DNA of 64,000 nucleotides from Nitrosospira sp. NpAV (GTDB lineage Bacteria > Pseudomonadota > Gammaproteobacteria > Burkholderiales > Nitrosomonadaceae): positions 1 to 64,000 of the forward strand of contig NZ_JXQM01000014.1 of the NCBI RefSeq assembly GCF_000832065.1, written 5' to 3'. Numbering within the stretch: the stretch's first letter is position 1; each line of letters starts with the position of its first letter. A model generated the notes under the pieces. It ran no database searches and was not told the origin of the DNA. It saw only the letters and a list, made by a program, of their open reading frames with translations. Positions 3,107 to 10,427 of the stretch are shown here, piece after piece. A program made the position numbers and the translations under genes.

Positions 3107-3152
3107 TGGTGCTGTTGAGAGGAGTCGAACCTCCGACCTACTGATTACGAAT
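3107..3152 (-). repeat. Left attachment site (attL): duplicated 3' part of tRNA-Thr
   Basis: Forty-six bases here are identical to 10352-10397, the 3' part of the intact tRNA-Thr gene (CCA end, acceptor strand, T arm, variable loop, and anticodon stem into the loop). Identity stops at 3106 and 3153. This is the product expected when a tyrosine integrase inserts an element into the 3' end of a tRNA gene. The left copy is the orphan and marks the left border of the island. The integrase gene starts 158 bp inside it. Confidence 0.92.
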
Positions 3153-3271
3153 TCTATTTCATGCTGTTAGAGATTATTTGAATATCTCGGAGAAAGTACT
3201 AAAACCCATGTTTTCACCTGTTTTTCTCGTTGATATTGTTTTAAACTTCCGGTCCCAGTTTGACACATCCT

Positions 3272-3290
3272 GTCTACACTGTGTCTACAT
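3272..3290 (+). repeat. Left copy of the GTCTACACT repeat, candidate integrase arm-type site
   Basis: GTCTACACTGTGTCTACAT is matched with one mismatch at 10288-10306 near the right border, in the same orientation. Each copy holds two GTCTACA half-sites 10 bp apart. A further GTCTACACT overlaps the integrase start at 3311-3319 and a GTCTACT lies at 9774-9780. Paired short repeats inside both ends of an integrated element are where integrases usually have arm-type binding sites. Function is inferred. Confidence 0.45.
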
Positions 3291-3309
3291 TAAAGAAGGA
3301 AGTTAGAAC

Positions 3310-4468
3310 ATGTCTACACTAGTTTCAGCACTGCCCGTCAGGATAACAAAATCTGTTGTCGATAGGTTGATTGCTCCCAAAGCAGGGCAAGCCTTTACCC
3401 GCGATTCCAAACTTAAGGGTTTTGCGGTCCGGATTACTACCTCTGGCGCAAAGTCCTTCATTTTGGAAAAACGTATCGATGGCAAAGTAAAGCGACTTAC
3501 TCTTGGCCGGTATCCGGAATTGACAGTCGGAAAAGAAGCAAAAGGAACTGCAAGCCACAACACTACAAAAAGCCTTCGATGATTTCCTAATTGCAAGGAA
3601 GAGCCTCAAGCCGCGCACGCTTTACGACTATCAGCGACTGATGAAAGTGGCTTTTCCCGATTGGCAAAATAAAGCTCTGATGGATATTAGCAAGGAGATG
3701 ATTGCCAAACGTCATGCCAAGATTGGTGCGGAAAACGGGGAGGCTTACGCTAACTTGGCTATGCGCTTTTTAAGGGCATTATTCAATTTCTCTATTGCGC
3801 AATATGAAGATAGCAGTGGCAATGCCATCGTGCGAGAAAACCCTGTTGTGCGACTTACACAGACTCGCGCATGGTATCGGGTAGAGCGCCGGCAGACCGT
3901 TATCAAATCTCATCAGCTTAAGCCTTGGTATGAAGGAGTAATGGCACTCAAGAATGACAAAACGTCACGACAGTCTGCGCTCGTTGCCGATTATCTTCTC
4001 TTCCTACTATTTACCGGACTCCGTCGTCAAGAAGCGGCAACCTTGAAATGGTCGGATATCGATCTACATGGACGCTCGTTTACAATCCGGGATACCAAGA
4101 ATAGAGACCCGCTCACATTGCCGCTCACGGACTTTGTTTACGGCTTGTTGGAAAGTAGAAGGGCTAATGCCGATTCAGAGTACGTTTTTGCCGGGAATGG
4201 AAAGGCCGGGTATTTGATCGAGCCTCGCAGTCAAGTGAAGAAAGTGATTGAAGCGTCTGTTGTACCATTTACGCTGCACGATCTGCGCCGCAGCTATATA
4301 ACCATCGCTGAAAGCATAGATATCTCCGCTTATGCATTAAAGCGCCTGGTGAATCACAAAATGAGTAATGATGTCACTGTGGGCTATATTGTTAACGATG
4401 TGGAGCGGCTAAGAGAGCCTATGCAAAAAATTACCGATCATATTCTTAGAAGCGTTAGGTTCAAATAG
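3310..4468 (+). pseudogene. Tyrosine integrase (DUF4102-type), interrupted by frameshift and deletion
   Basis: The first frame (3310-3582, 90 aa) holds the N-terminal DUF4102 arm-binding domain up to the LGRYPELTVGKEA motif. The protein then continues in the next frame from about 3542 (KELQATTLQKAFDDF), through the core-binding domain, to a complete catalytic domain ending at 4468. Catalytic residues are present in the second part: Arg in TGLRRQE, His and Arg in HDLRRSY, His in LVNHK and the nucleophile Tyr in VGYIV. Compared with the usual family layout about 20-30 residues between the two domains are missing, so the change is a deletion with frameshift and not a simple slip. The product is probably inactive unless a shortened catalytic half is made from 3641. 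Confidence 0.8.
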
Positions 4469-4471
4469 CAT

Positions 4472-5608
4472 ATGGCCCGCGATTTTATTAAGGAAGTTGA
4501 AGAAATCTCCTATCCCACCGAGCATCTTGGAAGCCTCAAGCGAGCCATGCCGCTAATAATGGCTGCTATAGAGCGAGACGGCCTGCCAATTGAGAGCGGA
4601 TTAATTGATCTAGGAGCGGTAGACAAAGGCCTTGATGTTGCTCTTTTCTTTTTCTACTGGGTCTCTGAAACAAATGAAATCATTGAAAATATCAATGCCG
4701 TGTTGACAGACATGCGGGAGCTTCCAACCAATTACGCCTTTCTCAGGGGATCGCCGAAAACGAGGTACTACCTTCTAGTCCGCACATTTTTCTACGAATT
4801 CTACCGATTCAGAGAAATATACCACCAAGTTGCCACACCAAGGGAAGCACAAACTTATTTGAACAAGATATGGAGTCGGATACGCTCCAGGCTTGATGAT
4901 AGGGACTTAACGTACTACGGCATGCGCGTTGTTAAGCCCCAGCATGACGATACCCCACATTGGCACCTATTGTTCTTCATGCCAAAAGAACACGTTGAGC
5001 AAGTCGGTAGCGTCATCCAAGACTACGCCATGCGCGAAGATGGAGATGAAGCAGGTGCTGCCAAGCACCGCTACAAAGAAGAACATATAGATCGATCAAA
5101 GGGCACGGCTGCCAGTTATATAGCGAAATACATTTCCAAGAACATCGATGGCTTTGGCCTGGATTGCGATATTGATGGTGGAGAGCCTATCAGTGCGGCT
5201 GAACGGGTAAGAGTATGGGCCAGCACTTGGGGCATCAGACAGTTTCAGCCGATTGGGGGACCGTCTGTAACGCTATGGCGCGAACTGCGCCGCATGGGTG
5301 AAATGGGTGTTACGGGAGAGTTGAAAGAATTGAGAGATACGGCGGATAAAGGCGAATGGGATCGTTTTGTGATGCTGATGGGCGGGCCGCAAGCAAAACG
5401 CAAGAATTTCCCAATAACACTCGCCAAGCAGTGGAATGACAAGCCTAACCGTTACGGGGAACCGAAAGGGGAAGAAGTAATTGGAATAGCGTGGGAAAAG
5501 ACAGTATTTCCTACCCGGATTCACCAATGGGTTATTAGCCATAAATCCGAGCCCGAAAGCAAAGAGGGCCGGTTGAGCTTAAAGAGGCTGCGAATGAAAA
5601 CGCAGTAA
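4472..5608 (+). CDS. Chimeric protein: unknown N-terminal part fused to a phage HUH replication endonuclease (GpA-like)
   Basis: A 378-residue frame. Residues from about 123 onward resemble the catalytic part of the P2 GpA-type rolling-circle replication endonuclease: IWSRIRSRL, then the HUH motif in TPHWHLLFF (His163, His165), then the tyrosine motif YIAKY (Tyr216, Tyr220), then WASTWGIRQFQPIGGPSVTLWRELR. The first 120 residues (with LFFFYWVSETNEI and YYLLVRTFFYEFYRFREIY) do not belong to that family and look like the start of another island protein. The large N-terminal and C-terminal parts of a normal GpA (about 700 aa) are absent. It starts 3 bp after the integrase stop. Most likely it is a deletion fusion that stayed in frame; whether it nicks DNA is unknown. 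Confidence 0.65.
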   Translation: MARDFIKEVEEISYPTEHLGSLKRAMPLIMAAIERDGLPIESGLIDLGAVDKGLDVALFFFYWVSETNEIIENINAVLTDMRELPTNYAFLRGSPKTRYYLLVRTFFYEFYRFREIYHQVATPREAQTYLNKIWSRIRSRLDDRDLTYYGMRVVKPQHDDTPHWHLLFFMPKEHVEQVGSVIQDYAMREDGDEAGAAKHRYKEEHIDRSKGTAASYIAKYISKNIDGFGLDCDIDGGEPISAAERVRVWASTWGIRQFQPIGGPSVTLWRELRRMGEMGVTGELKELRDTADKGEWDRFVMLMGGPQAKRKNFPITLAKQWNDKPNRYGEPKGEEVIGIAWEKTVFPTRIHQWVISHKSEPESKEGRLSLKRLRMKTQ

Positions 5609-5801
5609 TAATTTCATTACATAAGACTCGTCCTGCCCCCTTGGAGTACTGTCAATAACTGTACGCATAGCGAAAGCTCATCTAGATTTATTTTCCACGC
5701 TATTGTTATACTGCGCTCACCTACCTAGTTCAGATGGAGTAATCGGGTGGAGATGCTTGCTGGAGTTACACGGCCGAGCTTGGTTGCTAGAGTCAGAAAC
5801 T

Positions 5802-6377
5802 ATGAATACAAGTATTTGGGAATTTGTTCTGGCTTTGTTAGGTGCCTTGGGCGGCGGAGGTTTGATCGTGCTCGGGCTATCTCGTTGGCTGGGCGAAGTA
5901 TGGTCGAGTCGTATAGCAGAGAAATTGAGAGCCGCAAATGCACATGATCTTGAGCGTACAAAAGCTGCACTTCTCCACGAAGTGGAGAGCCACAAGATCA
6001 GGCTTAAGAAATCTGAATTTCTTTTTCAAAAGGAATTTGAAGCAGCGTCCTCCTTTTCCGCCGTTTTTAGATCCCTACATCCCGGCTTTAATCATCCTAA
6101 TATGGACTGGTACGAAGCATGCGATGAGATTGCGCAGCGCCTTGGTTCAATTGAAAAAAAGCTGGAACACTATTTCTCTGCATTCTCCGCCGTACTAACG
6201 GAAGAAGAAAGGAATATCTTGTCGGATGCTATTTCTGATGCGGGATATTGGAAATTTGAAGTAATAAATGGGGTCGTGTCCTGCGAATCTAGTGAAGCAG
6301 CAGGTACACTTTATCTCAAGCTCAAAGACTTTGACTCAAAGTTAATCGCGCGTATTCGTGATCAAGCAAGTCCCTAG
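5802..6377 (+). CDS. Membrane-anchored coiled-coil protein of unknown function
   Basis: A 191-residue protein starting at the ATG at 5802 (MNTSIWEFVLALLG); the frame is open further upstream to 5703 but that extension is not protein-like. Residues 5-27 form one transmembrane segment with a GALGGGG turn, followed by WLGEVWSSRIAEKLRAANAHDLERTKAALLHEV, which reads as a long amphipathic or coiled-coil helix. The C-terminal half is helical with no catalytic motif I can identify. Proteins built this way (one TM helix, a WLGxVWxxRI motif, a coiled coil) recur in defence-type islands in my recollection, but have no assigned function. It converges on the DNA polymerase gene. Confidence 0.65.
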   Translation: MNTSIWEFVLALLGALGGGGLIVLGLSRWLGEVWSSRIAEKLRAANAHDLERTKAALLHEVESHKIRLKKSEFLFQKEFEAASSFSAVFRSLHPGFNHPNMDWYEACDEIAQRLGSIEKKLEHYFSAFSAVLTEEERNILSDAISDAGYWKFEVINGVVSCESSEAAGTLYLKLKDFDSKLIARIRDQASP

Positions 6378-6438
6378 CATTTGAAATTGCAAGCGTTCAT
6401 GTTATTCGAGTTCGATCAACACTGCGACACTTCAGGTG

Positions 6439-8055
6439 TTACTCAGAAAAACTTGCATTAAGTATCCTCGGCTTAACATTTCCAATCCACTTTCTGAAAG
6501 CTTGTTCCATTATGTAGATCGCAGTTTCTTCTGCTCGCTTAATTCTCTCGGGCGACTCATCAAACTGCACAAGAACGGCATCGTGCATAGGAAGCAGAAT
6601 GCTGTCATTTCCGAACTCTCTTGCTAGTCCGATAACGCTCTCCTTGAAAATTAGAGACGCAGTGCCTTGCACCATTTGGCTTACAGCCCACCGGCGCTCT
6701 TTGTGACTAAGGCTTCCTTTGGCTTTTATGCTACGGCGGCGCCTGTTCCCAAAAATACTCGATACATAGCCATCGTGTAACAGACCTGTTTCGAGACGCT
6801 TTTTATACTCATCCAGTTTAGGAAATTCATCAAAAAACCGCTGTACTACTAGTTCGTACTTAGTAAGTTGCTCTCCCGTTGTATTTGCTCCCGCTAACAA
6901 TTTCGCTATATTTTCCCGTTTCATACCATAGCAAAATCCGAGAAAAATGCGCTTGCATAAATCCCTCTGATCCGCATTGCCGAACAGCGCTTTGCTCAAA
7001 GAAACGTACAAGTCAGTTGTATTATATTGTTCAATGAAGGTTGCATCTTCTGCAAGGGAGGCAAGTATCCCAGGTTCGAACTGCGTATAATCAAGGTATC
7101 TTAATTGTTTGTGCTCATCCGCTACCAATATAGAGCGATATTTTTTACGTAGCCCTTGCAACCGCGGTTCCGATACAAGGACGCGTCCTGTAACAGTCCC
7201 AAAGGGATGAAATATCGGATGGATACGATTACCACCCCCACAGATTCGTTTCAAGATGGATAAATCTTGCGATGCTCGGTTGTACTGTAAAAATGAGCGG
7301 GCAAAGTCGGAAGTATGTTGAGCAATTCGGAAGTATTCTTGAAGAGAGGCCATATCTGAGAATTCACTCAGGTGGTGCGCATCTGTCTTCGACAGAAACT
7401 CGCCGACATTTGCGAACCCCAGCCCTGCTGGGCTAAACCCTAAAGCTGAGGCAACGGCCTTGAATGCAGAGTATTTTTCGTTCTTCACCGCTTCCAGCAG
7501 TTGATCGGCGAGTTCTTTGTCTACACGAATTCCTTTATATTGCCTGTACCAAAACACTTGCTGCGCCGGTATTTCTATCTTAAGAAACCGTTCATACTCG
7601 TCATTTACCTTTAAATCTTGCAGTAGTTGTTCCCACAATCCTCTTAAAGCTTGGCACATAACTTTAAGCAACCGAATAGATTCTTGATGATCCGTCGCTC
7701 TCCGTTGAGCCTGTGTTAGGGCGTATACTGCTTCTCTATCCGCTTCGCTTACAAAAAAGGGTTTCAGTGCCCGCCACACATTCCATTTACGCTCCCCTCC
7801 TTGATCTCTAGCAAGACCGGATTGCAAGCGCACTGCGTCTCCGAGATCAATAAGTTGAGGAGGAAGTGCTTTTCGTGCCCGTCGCAGTTCGTCTATAAGC
7901 AACCATGTATCATAGGTGACCAATGCCCCAGCATGTTCGGATACTTCATCAATAAGGCATTCAGCATAAACCCCCGCTTCATTGAAAATCAACAACTTAG
8001 GACCCCAAACTTCGAACGGATCAGGTAAGTATGCTAAAAAACTTACACTATTCAT
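6439..8055 (-). CDS. Stand-alone family A DNA polymerase (PolA-like), partner of the adjacent reverse transcriptase
   Basis: 538 residues from the ATG at 8055 (an upstream GTG at 8061 is possible). The C-terminal half is a family A polymerase domain: TGRV in the thumb/palm region, motif A LDYTQFEP with Asp322, motif B (O-helix) RDLCKRIFLGFCYG with Arg364, Lys368 and Tyr376, and motif C MHDAVLVQF with His491-Asp492. Both metal-binding Asp are kept. Departures from Pol I are Leu at the Phe762 position of the O-helix and Ala where HDE has Glu. There is no 5' nuclease domain, and the first 150 residues look at most like a degenerate 3'-5' exonuclease. The start codon overlaps the RT stop, so the two are probably translationally coupled. 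It is clearly not the cell's replicative PolA. Confidence 0.88.
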   Translation of the reverse strand: MNSVSFLAYLPDPFEVWGPKLLIFNEAGVYAECLIDEVSEHAGALVTYDTWLLIDELRRARKALPPQLIDLGDAVRLQSGLARDQGGERKWNVWRALKPFFVSEADREAVYALTQAQRRATDHQESIRLLKVMCQALRGLWEQLLQDLKVNDEYERFLKIEIPAQQVFWYRQYKGIRVDKELADQLLEAVKNEKYSAFKAVASALGFSPAGLGFANVGEFLSKTDAHHLSEFSDMASLQEYFRIAQHTSDFARSFLQYNRASQDLSILKRICGGGNRIHPIFHPFGTVTGRVLVSEPRLQGLRKKYRSILVADEHKQLRYLDYTQFEPGILASLAEDATFIEQYNTTDLYVSLSKALFGNADQRDLCKRIFLGFCYGMKRENIAKLLAGANTTGEQLTKYELVVQRFFDEFPKLDEYKKRLETGLLHDGYVSSIFGNRRRRSIKAKGSLSHKERRWAVSQMVQGTASLIFKESVIGLAREFGNDSILLPMHDAVLVQFDESPERIKRAEETAIYIMEQAFRKWIGNVKPRILNASFSE

Positions 8056-9685
8056 AGTCACGGTCCAAGTCGGCTACCTTAGCGATTGACATCCTTTCAG
8101 GAGGCAAGAAGTAACGGCCTTTTTTTTCGCTATTAAGCTTGCGATATACCCCAACCAAGTCATCCCTCACGTACTCTTTAACATGGACCTTTATGTACGG
8201 ATTGAATGCCAATTCGTGCATTGCGATTAGGGCGATTCTCTGCCCCAAGAATGACTTTAAGGTTCTGAAGTTTTGAGCAACCTCAATCTTGTCATCAAGA
8301 CCGCCGGTTGCTGCAATGTATATTGTTGCGCCCGCACGCACAGGCCCATCAGGTTCAGCTTTCAGAACATCTTTTGCAAAGTGAAGGTGCTTGGAGTCCT
8401 TATATCCCTTCTGAGCCAGCAGGCTCCACAGTCGATAATTCTGCCAACTGTAGATGGCTCTTACCCCATCACGAAGATATTCGACCACTGATGCCAGGCT
8501 TTCAGGGTCAGTAGGTACTGCAAGAAGATAACGAACGAATTGATCTGTAGAAGCAGGATGATCGGGAATTGCCTTTATTATCTGTGGTGTCACGTCTGAA
8601 TAAAGCTCTGGCGGGACATAAAAATCATTACACAGCGCCAAGAATTCCATTCGCCTTATGCAATATCTGAAGTCACGCGAGTCGGTTTTATTTTCGGTAA
8701 TCAGTTGTTGAAATAAGGCCTTCAAATCGGGGATCGATCTTAAAATTGCGCTTCTGGAACGCGTCTTCCATATTTCATCAATTCGCTGTACTTCAGGGGA
8801 CCCATCATCAAGACACTCGGCTATCAGCTTGCTATCCGTTCCAGGGGCTATTACCGTTTTCTTTGAGTTGATAGACAGGCCGATATCGCGAAGACAAACG
8901 CTGAGCTGTTTTAGCGCACTGCGCGCCTCAAAAACGCTAGAGCAGACGATCTTTATATCATCCATATATCGAAAGTACGCAAAGCCTGCGCGCAGCATTG
9001 TTAAATCAACACGTCGCATATACACATTTGCAAGGAACGACGACGCGTCTCGATTCTGCGGAAGACCTCTATCGGGCTCATAAGTCCAAGCCTGCAAGCA
9101 ACTAAAAAGTAGTTGGATGTGTGACCTAATGTCAGCTTTTTGGGCGCTATTTGCCTGAACTTCGGGGAGCATCTCAAGAAAAGCGCTCTTTAACCGGGGT
9201 AGGGAAATATTTTCAAAGTAATTAGCTATATCTGTAGAAAGCAGTATCTTGTCCTCCCCCATGTCACTACGAACGGTGCCGACAAAATCCTGCCATGCTG
9301 GAATGGCTCTACGAAACATATATCTTTCATTTGGCCGAAGATAGTTGTAACGATGACTAAAAACATTCCAAGGAATAAGCTTGTCAAAGAAGGGGATAAG
9401 AAATGAGGCAAGACCATGATAAAGCGCGCGATCTGCCAAGCCTGTTTCTAGCGCATAGCGCAATGTAAAGTTGGGTTTCGGAACATTTAGTATGTGCCGC
9501 GCTGATGGCACGTATTCGCCGTGATTCGACTCAAAGTTATCATTGATACGCGTCGTGATGAGCCCTGTATCAATCATATCTTCATAGCCCAGAGGATCAG
9601 GAAACCAGTCATCTTTAAGATCATATCGCAGCTGCTTAAATAAGCTGCTTTCGCTAAATTGAATTCGTCCTAATTCGATTATCAT
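8048..9685 (-). CDS. Reverse transcriptase with C-terminal helical extension, possible defence-associated RT
   Basis: 545 residues from the ATG at 9685, chosen because MIIELGRIQF begins the recognisable protein and a promoter-like sequence lies just upstream; the frame is open to a TTG at 9745. RT motifs in order: RRAIPAWQDF, motif A STDIANYFENI (Asp152), motif B GLPQNRDASSFLANVYM (207-223), the catalytic YMDD (240-243) and INSKKT (272-277). Motif B lacks the PQG of group II introns and retrons. No maturase, endonuclease or Cas1 domain is fused. Residues 300-545 are a helical, HEAT-like extension, as seen in the UG/Abi group of bacterial RTs. It is the first gene of an operon with the family A polymerase and overlaps it by 8 bp. 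Confidence 0.9.
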   Translation of the reverse strand: MIIELGRIQFSESSLFKQLRYDLKDDWFPDPLGYEDMIDTGLITTRINDNFESNHGEYVPSARHILNVPKPNFTLRYALETGLADRALYHGLASFLIPFFDKLIPWNVFSHRYNYLRPNERYMFRRAIPAWQDFVGTVRSDMGEDKILLSTDIANYFENISLPRLKSAFLEMLPEVQANSAQKADIRSHIQLLFSCLQAWTYEPDRGLPQNRDASSFLANVYMRRVDLTMLRAGFAYFRYMDDIKIVCSSVFEARSALKQLSVCLRDIGLSINSKKTVIAPGTDSKLIAECLDDGSPEVQRIDEIWKTRSRSAILRSIPDLKALFQQLITENKTDSRDFRYCIRRMEFLALCNDFYVPPELYSDVTPQIIKAIPDHPASTDQFVRYLLAVPTDPESLASVVEYLRDGVRAIYSWQNYRLWSLLAQKGYKDSKHLHFAKDVLKAEPDGPVRAGATIYIAATGGLDDKIEVAQNFRTLKSFLGQRIALIAMHELAFNPYIKVHVKEYVRDDLVGVYRKLNSEKKGRYFLPPERMSIAKVADLDRDYE

Positions 9686-9717
9686 TGTTATTGGTGAATG
9701 TGAAAGCAGTGCAATAA

Positions 9718-9747
9718 GATACTGGAATAAATCATTGGAGCGCAATG
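9718..9747 (-). promoter_or_regulatory. Candidate promoter of the RT-PolA operon
   Basis: Reading the minus strand, TTGCGC is followed after 18 nt by TATCTT, about 35 nt upstream of the ATG at 9685. The match to a sigma-70 promoter is modest. It sits between the hairpin terminator at 9831-9859 and the RT start, which is where a promoter is needed. Confidence 0.3.
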
Positions 9748-9824
9748 ATCAATTCGGTTACAACCTCAAGCGTGTCTACTCAAACGGAATCCAATGCGGA
9801 AACCTTGTCGATAGATCGTAAGAA

Positions 9825-9864
9825 ATAAAAACGGCCTAGAGAAAATATCTCTAGGCCGTTTTTT
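9825..9864. terminator. Strong bidirectional hairpin terminator upstream of the RT
   Basis: A perfect 12-bp stem (ACGGCCTAGAGA at 9831-9842 and its complement at 9848-9859) closes a 5-nt loop. It is followed by a T run on the plus strand and flanked by an A run on the other side, so it can work in both directions. It is the clearest intrinsic terminator in the window. On the minus strand it shields the RT operon from transcription entering from the tRNA side. On the plus strand it could end a short RNA starting near 9750. Confidence 0.85.
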
Positions 9865-10099
9865 GTTAGCATGGAAAGCATTCAAGCCCGCGACTTAATC
9901 AATTAAGCGGTCCTAATTAGCCTGAATTCTAATTCTATAAAGCGATAACGTTTGTGTTGTAGCAAATACATATTGCTCCGATTTGAATACTGCTCAGACG
10001 CCGCCGATGTGGTCAGATTTAAGCTATCCTTCATACTACTACCGGTCTACTACGCTGAGATAATAAAAAGTTACGTCGAGATAGGTACTTGAAAGAACG

Positions 10100-10142
10100 G
10101 TGGGTCGTGAGCGGCTCGAACGCTCGACCTCCGGATTATAAG
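10100..10142 (-). pseudogene. Orphan 3' half of a tRNA (second attachment-site remnant)
   Basis: On the minus strand this reads as the 3' part of a tRNA: anticodon loop CTTATAA and stem TCCGG, variable AGGTC, T arm GAGCG-TTCGAGC-CGCTC, acceptor strand ACGACCC, then A and CC. The 5' half that should precede it is missing; the sequence there cannot form the D arm. It differs from the island's own target tRNA-Thr and from tRNA-Lys at 37014. If the loop is read as an anticodon it would be TAT. Such 3' fragments are usually left by an integrase that uses a different tRNA target. Confidence 0.6.
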
Positions 10143-10287
10143 AGGCGGTTTTTACTACCTTCGAAGAGCCCACCCACTGCTACCCATAAGCTGATGTTTG
10201 CGGTAGCTTACGAGGCTCCAAGTACCACTTCCGCTGGGGAACTCCAAGCCCAGAGTATCGCAACTAGATAGCAACTCATGTGCTATC

Positions 10288-10306
10288 GTCTACACTCTGT
10301 CTACAT
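10288..10306 (+). repeat. Right copy of the GTCTACACT repeat, candidate integrase arm-type site
   Basis: GTCTACACTCTGTCTACAT differs by one base from the copy at 3272-3290 and lies 46 bp inside the right attachment repeat. Same orientation as the left copy. Confidence 0.45.
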
Positions 10307-10351
10307 CTCTGCACAGTCATTTCAATATAAATTTCTAAGTTGTTGATTTCA

Positions 10352-10427
<76 letters not shown>

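Follow-up and report, generated by a model that had tools for sequence, protein, structure and literature searches.

The window analysed here is the whole 64,000-nucleotide stretch of contig NZ_JXQM01000014.1 (positions 1 to 64,000 of the forward strand, RefSeq assembly GCF_000832065.1) from Nitrosospira sp. NpAV, and its subject is a pair of genes encoding a reverse transcriptase (RT) of the UG9 group and a family A DNA polymerase (PolA). Both genes are intact and lie on the minus strand, and the pair is the cargo of a 7.2-kb tRNA-Thr element (window 3107–10397). The pair is laid out as follows.

8048–9685, minus strand: UG9 reverse transcriptase, 545 amino acids, with the RT domain at about residues 60–296 and a helical-repeat domain at about 297–520.
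6439–8055, minus strand: RT-associated family A DNA polymerase (RTasPolA), 538 amino acids, with an N-terminal domain without recognisable exonuclease motifs.
8048–8055, minus strand: 8-nucleotide overlap of the RT stop and the PolA start, tATGAATAG, the same overlap being found in relatives.

An earlier reading of the window, made from its letters alone (the original prediction), had described overlapping and intact RT and PolA genes among decayed mobility genes, and this description was borne out. Its frames correspond to real genes, but the starts that it had used, TTG 9745 for the RT and GTG 8061 for PolA, were replaced after comparison with the starts of relatives: the RT probably starts at ATG 9685, which is preferred because close relatives start with M[AT]IDLG or similar, and PolA probably starts at ATG 8055, which sits within tATGAATAG. 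The 8-nucleotide overlap was identical in 24 of the 30 loci with a full-length RT, the window counted (the loci without it being L030, L035, L037, L039, L047 and L057 in our own numbering), and in all three plasmid relatives read, which makes translational coupling of the RT and PolA probable.

The RT matched the PADLOC model RT_UG9_small over residues 23–565 (in the frame from TTG 9745) with an E-value of 6.6e-206 and 683 bits, the weaker PADLOC matches being RT_UG9_large at 282 bits and RT_UG21, the next distinct group, at 205 bits. By this full-length profile match, far above those to other RT groups, the enzyme is assigned to the UG9 group. The group II model TIGR04416 gave 61.8 bits against a cut-off of 300 and the retron St85 model 36.7 against 235; in the RT tree, which contained no retron sequence, three group II RTs formed a separate clade (support 95/89) and the UG9 sequences grouped together (86/92). 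The earlier placing of the RT among the UG/Abi-type enzymes, and not with group II introns or retrons, is thus upheld by the profile match, by the structural neighbours given below, by both models falling far below their cut-offs and by the separate group II clade. Among the tree sequences, those of L098, L102 and L104 were above the family cut-off and those of L099, L100 and L101 were Drt4-like and below it, while L103 (internal stop) and one spurious L101 open reading frame (ORF) were left out; 'Drt3a' denotes the ORF adjoining Drt3b in L104, named by position, and Drt4 is counted as class 1.

The motif A (STD152), the YMDD motif (D242 and D243) and the non-canonical motif B GLPQNRDAS noticed in the original prediction were all present. 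Within motif B, Q210, N211, R212 and D213 were invariant in all 30 RTs aligned (L033, L050, L055, L056 and L059, with an RT broken, truncated or cut by the contig end, were left out, and the plasmid loci L025–L027 were left out of the structure alignments), so the unusual motif B characterises the family and is no sign of decay. This motif retains the PQ of group II and Drt2 sequences, whereas the Drt4 and Drt3b sequences aligned have an IG-type motif. In the AlphaFold2 model, built on 30 sequences with a mean pLDDT (predicted local distance difference test) of 92.3, the RT domain is followed from residue 297 by about fourteen helices in repeat-like order, reaching to about residue 520, which confirms the helical extension originally described. 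The best structural neighbours by Foldseek E-value were DRT6, UG15/DRT4 and AbiK, with TMq values of 0.65 for DRT6, 0.53–0.60 for AbiK (five chains) and 0.50–0.52 for DRT4/UG15, and both the model and these neighbours correspond to the class 1 UG/Abi architecture, that is, an RT followed by a helical (HEAT-like) repeat domain. No entry named UG9 was found among the 28 PDB sequences matching the RT profile. Additionally, the tyrosines Y58, Y77, Y89, Y122 and Y417 were invariant or near-invariant and are mere candidates for protein priming.

The second gene product matched the PADLOC model RTasPolA over nearly its whole length (E 5.1e-147), and the host genome has a second, full-length PolA of its own. 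Its AlphaFold2 model (29 sequences, mean pLDDT 93.1) was closest in Foldseek to the Bacillus (Bst) large fragment, with a TMq of 0.73 at the best E-value and of 0.69–0.78 among the 50 matches listed. It was verified that the palm retains both catalytic aspartates and the arginine, lysine and tyrosine of the O-helix, as had been claimed from the window alone: D322 and D492 (motifs A and C), R364, K368 and Y376 were each kept in 29 of 29 sequences (L043, L046, L050, L055, L056 and L059 being left out of this alignment). The equivalents of D705, E710, R754, K758, Y766, Q849, H881 and D882 were likewise invariant in 29/29, the Pol I residue numbers being those of Klenow. Three departures from the host Pol I were found in the same set, namely R712 to G (28/29), F762 to L (29/29) and E883 to A (29/29). 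As a result of the last, motif C reads HDA (window 6577–6585, minus strand) in all 31 sequences compared, that is, the 29 aligned and those of two viral loci, versus HDE in seven of seven control family A polymerases (four from phages, two from the plasmid collection and the host's own). The F762 to L change is common to PolA and the three mycobacteriophage polymerases compared, whereas HDA is not. The phage polymerases covering PolA best by sequence were those of mycobacteriophages, at 22–28% identity, which suggests a phage-type origin. In the N-terminal domain, the exonuclease motifs (DxE and others) were not seen by eye, the host PolA having SLDTETTG and YAAEDAD; within residues 2–152 only D12, P65, D70 and G80 reached at least 80% conservation, the profile alignment being unsure there.

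A four-sequence RT alignment, run against 84,980 species genomes, yielded 36 loci, 34 of which are UG9 relatives and two of which are distant RTs; L062 and L063 (partial, 23–28% identity) were left out of the relatives. By record titles, the relatives span six phyla (Pseudomonadota, Verrucomicrobiota, Bacteroidota, Balneolota, Acidobacteriota and a Melainabacteria-type metagenome-assembled genome), and the six non-proteobacterial members and two others were confirmed as UG9 by profile. PolA follows the RT in 31 of the 34, the exceptions (L055, L056 and L059) being truncated, split or cut RTs, and it lies directly downstream in every one of the 29 relatives with a full-length RT, although it is interrupted in two of them (L043 and L046). 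Therefore, the conserved adjacency that the original prediction had proposed as a check was found, and across phyla. The same arrangement occurs at three plasmid loci (L025–L027), and in the plasmid collection the five best PolA records were also the five best RT records. Among viral contigs, the PolA query matched two loci and the RT query 64, of which only those on the same two contigs were close; their RTs match at 33–34% identity over most of the length, and both contigs carry RT–PolA pairs. No match to the system was found in the phage collection, and in a phylum sample of 398 genomes and an order sample of 399 the cut-offs used left the window's own genome as the sole match, which indicates that the system is rare and patchy.

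The RT and PolA trees of 28 loci share 14 of 25 splits and had a distance correlation of 0.95; the highest value reached by 2000 permutations, a procedure that ignores shared ancestry, was 0.53. This correspondence fits the inheritance of the RT and PolA as a unit and is no proof of physical contact. Regarding further components, 127 flanking ORFs (at most two per side at 34 loci) contained only two similar pairs, each in two loci, hence no recurrent third gene stands beside RT–PolA.

Two observations on the surroundings of relatives are recorded in their own right. In Vreelandella lutescens (L043, 3990–4369), a tandem of three tRNA-Asn(GTT) genes is found upstream of the pair, with parts about 85% identical to the tRNA-Thr of the window. 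In two Sphingomonas (L041, 37–4644, and L053, 132–4739), a 1535-amino-acid ORF lies just upstream of the pair; the two proteins have no mutual BLASTP similarity and no PADLOC match, and the only Pfam match is HEAT_2, in that of L041.

The element that carries the pair, and the other features around it, are listed below.

3107–3152, no strand assigned: left direct repeat, a 46-bp copy of the 3′ part of tRNA-Thr.
3310–4468, plus strand: tyrosine integrase, decayed, in two frames with an internal segment missing (Pfam PF13356 and PF00589).
4472–5608, plus strand: Phage_GPA-type Rep, N-terminally truncated (PF05840, E 1.9e-43).
5802–6377, plus strand: 191-amino-acid ORF with a hydrophobic N-terminus, helical by eye, of no family and outside the conserved unit.
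9827–9863, no strand assigned: perfect inverted repeat of 16 bp with a T run, resembling a minus-strand terminator, immediately upstream of the RT.
10352–10397, no strand assigned: right direct repeat, 46 bp and exact, inside tRNA-Thr(CGT) (10352–10427, minus strand).

The genomic island assumed in the original prediction is thus real, as indicated by the 46-bp exact direct repeats, the right one lying in tRNA-Thr. An empty site was sought in genomes of the same genus without one being demonstrated, since most of these genomes matched the repeat only, without the left flanking gene. The two integrase pieces are 83–85% identical to an intact homologue of 409 amino acids, and the Rep (378 amino acids) is 74% identical to residues 406–657 of an intact homologue of 679, about 400 N-terminal residues being gone. 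Furthermore, the 40 nucleotides at 10099–10138, a short way upstream of the RT and inside the tRNA-Thr element, match the 3′ part of a tRNA-Lys(CTT) gene at 98% identity and are therefore probably an old attachment-site remnant from a different element, which may make the island composite. The inverted repeat at 9827–9863 is weak as a pattern match, since one was found against a shuffle mean of 0.7, and the 136 nucleotides around it fold with a z of –4.77. The 191-amino-acid ORF matched nothing in Pfam, PADLOC or NCBIfam at E 0.1 and was rejected as a third protein partner because no homologue was present at the other loci compared.

The strongest evidence for RT–PolA as a defence module comes from the cargo of sister elements. 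A same-genus element at the same repeat (L074) has an integrase and a Rep 75–84% identical in DNA and other cargo, namely a C5 methylase, a HEPN protein and a GmrSD_N protein. When the L074 Rep was used as a query, 49 of the 125 genomes of the family, that of the window among them, returned 74 match rows. Beyond L074, the five most similar long Rep places were read, G774:C18 (internal stop) and G772:C42 (partial) being passed over; the element remnant in L076 is outside the six elements scanned for cargo. In these five, the cargo consisted of HamA and HamB (Hachiman) in L167, of KwaA and KwaB (Kiwa) plus PDC-M36A in L168, of a 1262-amino-acid protein with TIR and TPR matches in L169, which lies at tRNA-Thr(CGT), of a ThsB-type (Thoeris-type) protein in L170 and of a PDC-S73 candidate in L171, an element of uncertain limits that showed no integrase. 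Thus, all six sister elements scanned carry antiphage genes, either known or candidate, and in five of the six the cargo lies on the Rep side away from the integrase, as in the window. These elements were picked by Rep similarity and not by cargo, and the argument is one of guilt by association, with no matched control for the slot. In addition, genome G764 has at the same tRNA an element (L075) with a distantly related integrase (25% identity) and type I restriction-like genes, of which only the specificity subunit was scanned, the others being judged from ORFs. Taken together, there seems to be, in the host's family, a family of small elements with an integrase, a Phage_GPA-type Rep and an exchangeable antiphage cargo slot. 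Since defence cargo occupies the same slot in the sister elements, a defence role of RT–PolA is more than a guess, and we consider such a role likely.

Two explanations other than defence were weighed on the same evidence. That the pair belongs to the replication machinery of the mobile element itself would agree with its position in an element with a Rep gene; it is extremely unlikely, because sister elements with the same integrase–Rep backbone have other cargo and relatives of the pair are found in other contexts. It was also considered that the RT and PolA might fill gaps as a DNA repair module and not in defence, like the G2L4 RT described in the available portion of PMC12337344. The PolA fold is indeed that of the repair polymerase Pol I, and the host retains its own full PolA, by which the extra one would be specialised; however, the patchy distribution (no other genome among 397 in the phylum sample or 398 in the order sample at the cut-offs used) and the carriage on plasmids, on viral contigs and in a cargo slot otherwise holding defence genes make repair very unlikely.

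A noncoding RNA (ncRNA) was sought by comparing flanks in near relatives, folding upstream alignments and scanning loci with Rfam. Upstream similarity was limited to near relatives and fell to background within about 100–200 nucleotides. The search upstream for a conserved structured RNA, such as the cis-encoded one that marks class 2 UG RTs (templated by an ncRNA, as in DRT2, DRT9 and DRT10), gave no consensus pairs in seven sequences, two-sided changes in just 2 of the 55 pairs predicted for four near relatives, and nothing at gathering scores of Rfam in 12 relatives. In 14 of 15 pairs, identity over the first 100 nucleotides upstream of the RT slightly exceeded that of fourfold sites, which is what a promoter or leader would produce. 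As a separate observation, L029 and L050 are 60–71% identical over 150 nucleotides upstream of the RT, yet 34% identical at fourfold sites (93 sites); local constraint by a leader, a promoter or a short RNA is possible there. Two candidates were discarded: the low-scoring Rfam hits on the terminator hairpin (BTnc231, trpB and GibS, all far below gathering) are attributed to chance, given a hairpin and U tail, and the tRNA-like stretch upstream of the RT to which 10099–10138 belongs folds no better than shuffles (z –0.95).

These results bear on the possibility that the RT copies a cis-encoded, host or phage RNA and that PolA makes double-stranded DNA to be integrated or kept as a record, in the manner of a retroelement or of adaptation. 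An RT and a DNA polymerase would suffice for double-stranded DNA, motif B resembles that of templated RTs, and the mild upstream constraint, strongest in L029 and L050, would agree with an RNA of this kind. On the other hand, the pair has no recurrent neighbour, be it an integrase, a nuclease or another gene, no array-like repeats were found in the island, and neither Rfam in 12 relatives nor the alignment of seven upstream sequences gave a match or consensus pairs, so this explanation is regarded as quite unlikely.

With about even confidence, RT–PolA is interpreted as a defence-associated RT system of the UG9 type, made up of two genes and forming the cargo of a small integrative element. 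In the proposed mechanism, the RT would begin a DNA strand upon phage infection, perhaps with a tyrosine of its own as the primer, as AbiK does; the dedicated PolA, without recognisable proofreading motifs, would make the complementary strand; and the double-stranded product, or the replication drain from making it, would stop the infection. A division of labour in which the RT begins one strand and leaves the other to PolA has, in our judgement, equal chances of being right and wrong. The first strand could be either copied from RNA or made without a nucleic acid template, and because the fold is nearest to template-free RTs and no conserved structured RNA was found, the 'double-stranded cDNA' of the original prediction is one of two live options. 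Its antiphage suggestion has gained ground from the cargo of the sister elements, whereas RNA copying by the RT and second-strand synthesis by PolA stay at the level of inference.

The closest competitor in mechanism is an untemplated, protein-primed RT, as in AbiK and DRT4, with a PolA that would extend, protect or regulate the product or sense phage DNA ends. Its support lies in structural neighbours that are template-free RTs or relatives of these, in an HDA motif conserved in 31/31, by which a regulatory or reduced activity is conceivable, and in the lack of a conserved structured RNA in the searches described. Nevertheless, it is held to be unlikely, since the invariance of the PolA catalytic aspartates, of the O-helix R, K and Y and of the E710 equivalent in 29/29 argues for catalysis, and since motif B of the RT keeps PQ.

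Several points weigh against the two-strand defence interpretation preferred here. In the RT tree, UG9 was joined with Drt4 and Drt3b at a support of 51/5 only, its place relative to class 1 and class 2 being unsettled, and as the PQ-type motif B is unlike the IG-type, the analogy with untemplated RTs may mislead. The absence of the motif C glutamate, together with the two other departures, may mean a low or altered PolA activity. The mild constraint in the first 100 nucleotides, given the few close relatives, leaves room for a short leader RNA, and 11 of the 25 splits differ between the RT and PolA trees. Defence genes do stand beside some relatives (HamB, PD-Lambda-4_A, ZacA/ZacB and type I and III methyltransferase models), but the excess is modest, about 8 of the 127 flanking ORFs, among the matches listed, versus 2 of 114 control ORFs at E ≤ 1e-40, and owing to its weakness it is not relied on as evidence of defence. 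Finally, no functional study of UG9 was found in the open-licence literature, and neither expression nor a DNA product or phage phenotype has been reported for the pair, to our knowledge.

Surveys have already recorded the partnership between the UG9 RT and a polymerase of Pol I type, and no study was found of what the pair makes. As an experimental object, the locus is a testable system, consisting of one short operon with both enzymes intact, no recurrent third gene, named active-site residues and a slot pointing to phage defence. If the RT does start a strand that PolA completes, bacteria would have several times joined an RT to a second polymerase to make antiviral DNA.

Among known systems, AbiK, DRT4 and DRT6 are alike in their RT plus helical-repeat architecture (TMq 0.50–0.65); they differ in sharing 11–15% identity with the UG9 RT in the Foldseek alignments, in the IG-type motif B of the Drt4 sequences compared versus PQNRD in UG9, and in that no PolA partner is described for them in the available portions of the literature consulted (PMC9508834, PMC13213688). 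The same portions describe template-free DNA synthesis by AbiK and DRT4 and a structural homology of DRT6 to DRT4 (PMC13213688, PMC9508834). DRT3 resembles the UG9 pair in encoding two DNA-synthesising enzymes together, whereas these are, in the part available of a preprint, two RTs making complementary strands with an ncRNA (PMC13174585); the UG9 RT is instead paired with a family A polymerase, and the searches for a conserved structured RNA gave none. In DRT7, as far as the text at hand describes it (PMC13213688, itself resting on a preprint), an RT is similarly joined to a second, unrelated DNA polymerase, although there the RT is fused to a primase-polymerase, unlike the two proteins and family A polymerase of UG9. 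Through these two precedents, within the limits of those texts, the coupling of an RT to a second polymerase for DNA synthesis has been reported as a principle of defence, which makes the model proposed here plausible and not unique. Tentatively, and with somewhat less than even confidence, UG9 RT–PolA could be a third defence, evolved independently of DRT3 and DRT7, that writes DNA with two polymerases. An RT of AbiK/DRT6-like helical-repeat architecture with a templated-type motif B would then hand its strand to a dedicated PolA whose metal site is remodelled (HDA), giving a double-stranded DNA effector without a dedicated ncRNA, and the surrounding element family would be one of small integrase–Rep carriers with an exchangeable defence slot.

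The nearest relative of all is the catalogued pairing itself. The 2023 PADLOC-DB includes RT_UG9 and RTasPolA models (DRT entries PDLC03786 and PDLC03816), and the available portion of the myRT survey reports UG9 with PRK14975, a polymerase domain, at 94% co-occurrence (PMC8934634). An accessible part of Toro 2014 puts UG9, which it lists from Proteobacteria only, close to the Abi lineage, its relationships being uncertain (PMC4244168). The novelty of the pair was hence overestimated in the original prediction, as it is already in PADLOC and, to judge from the portion seen, in the survey of 2021. RT family, partner family and adjacency are the same and, as far as these sources describe the pairing, nothing essential differs; the window pair is, by its profile matches, a further member of the catalogued UG9 RT plus RTasPolA pairing, to which the present analysis adds the breadth of six phyla (by record titles), the gene overlap, the HDA signature and the cargo context.

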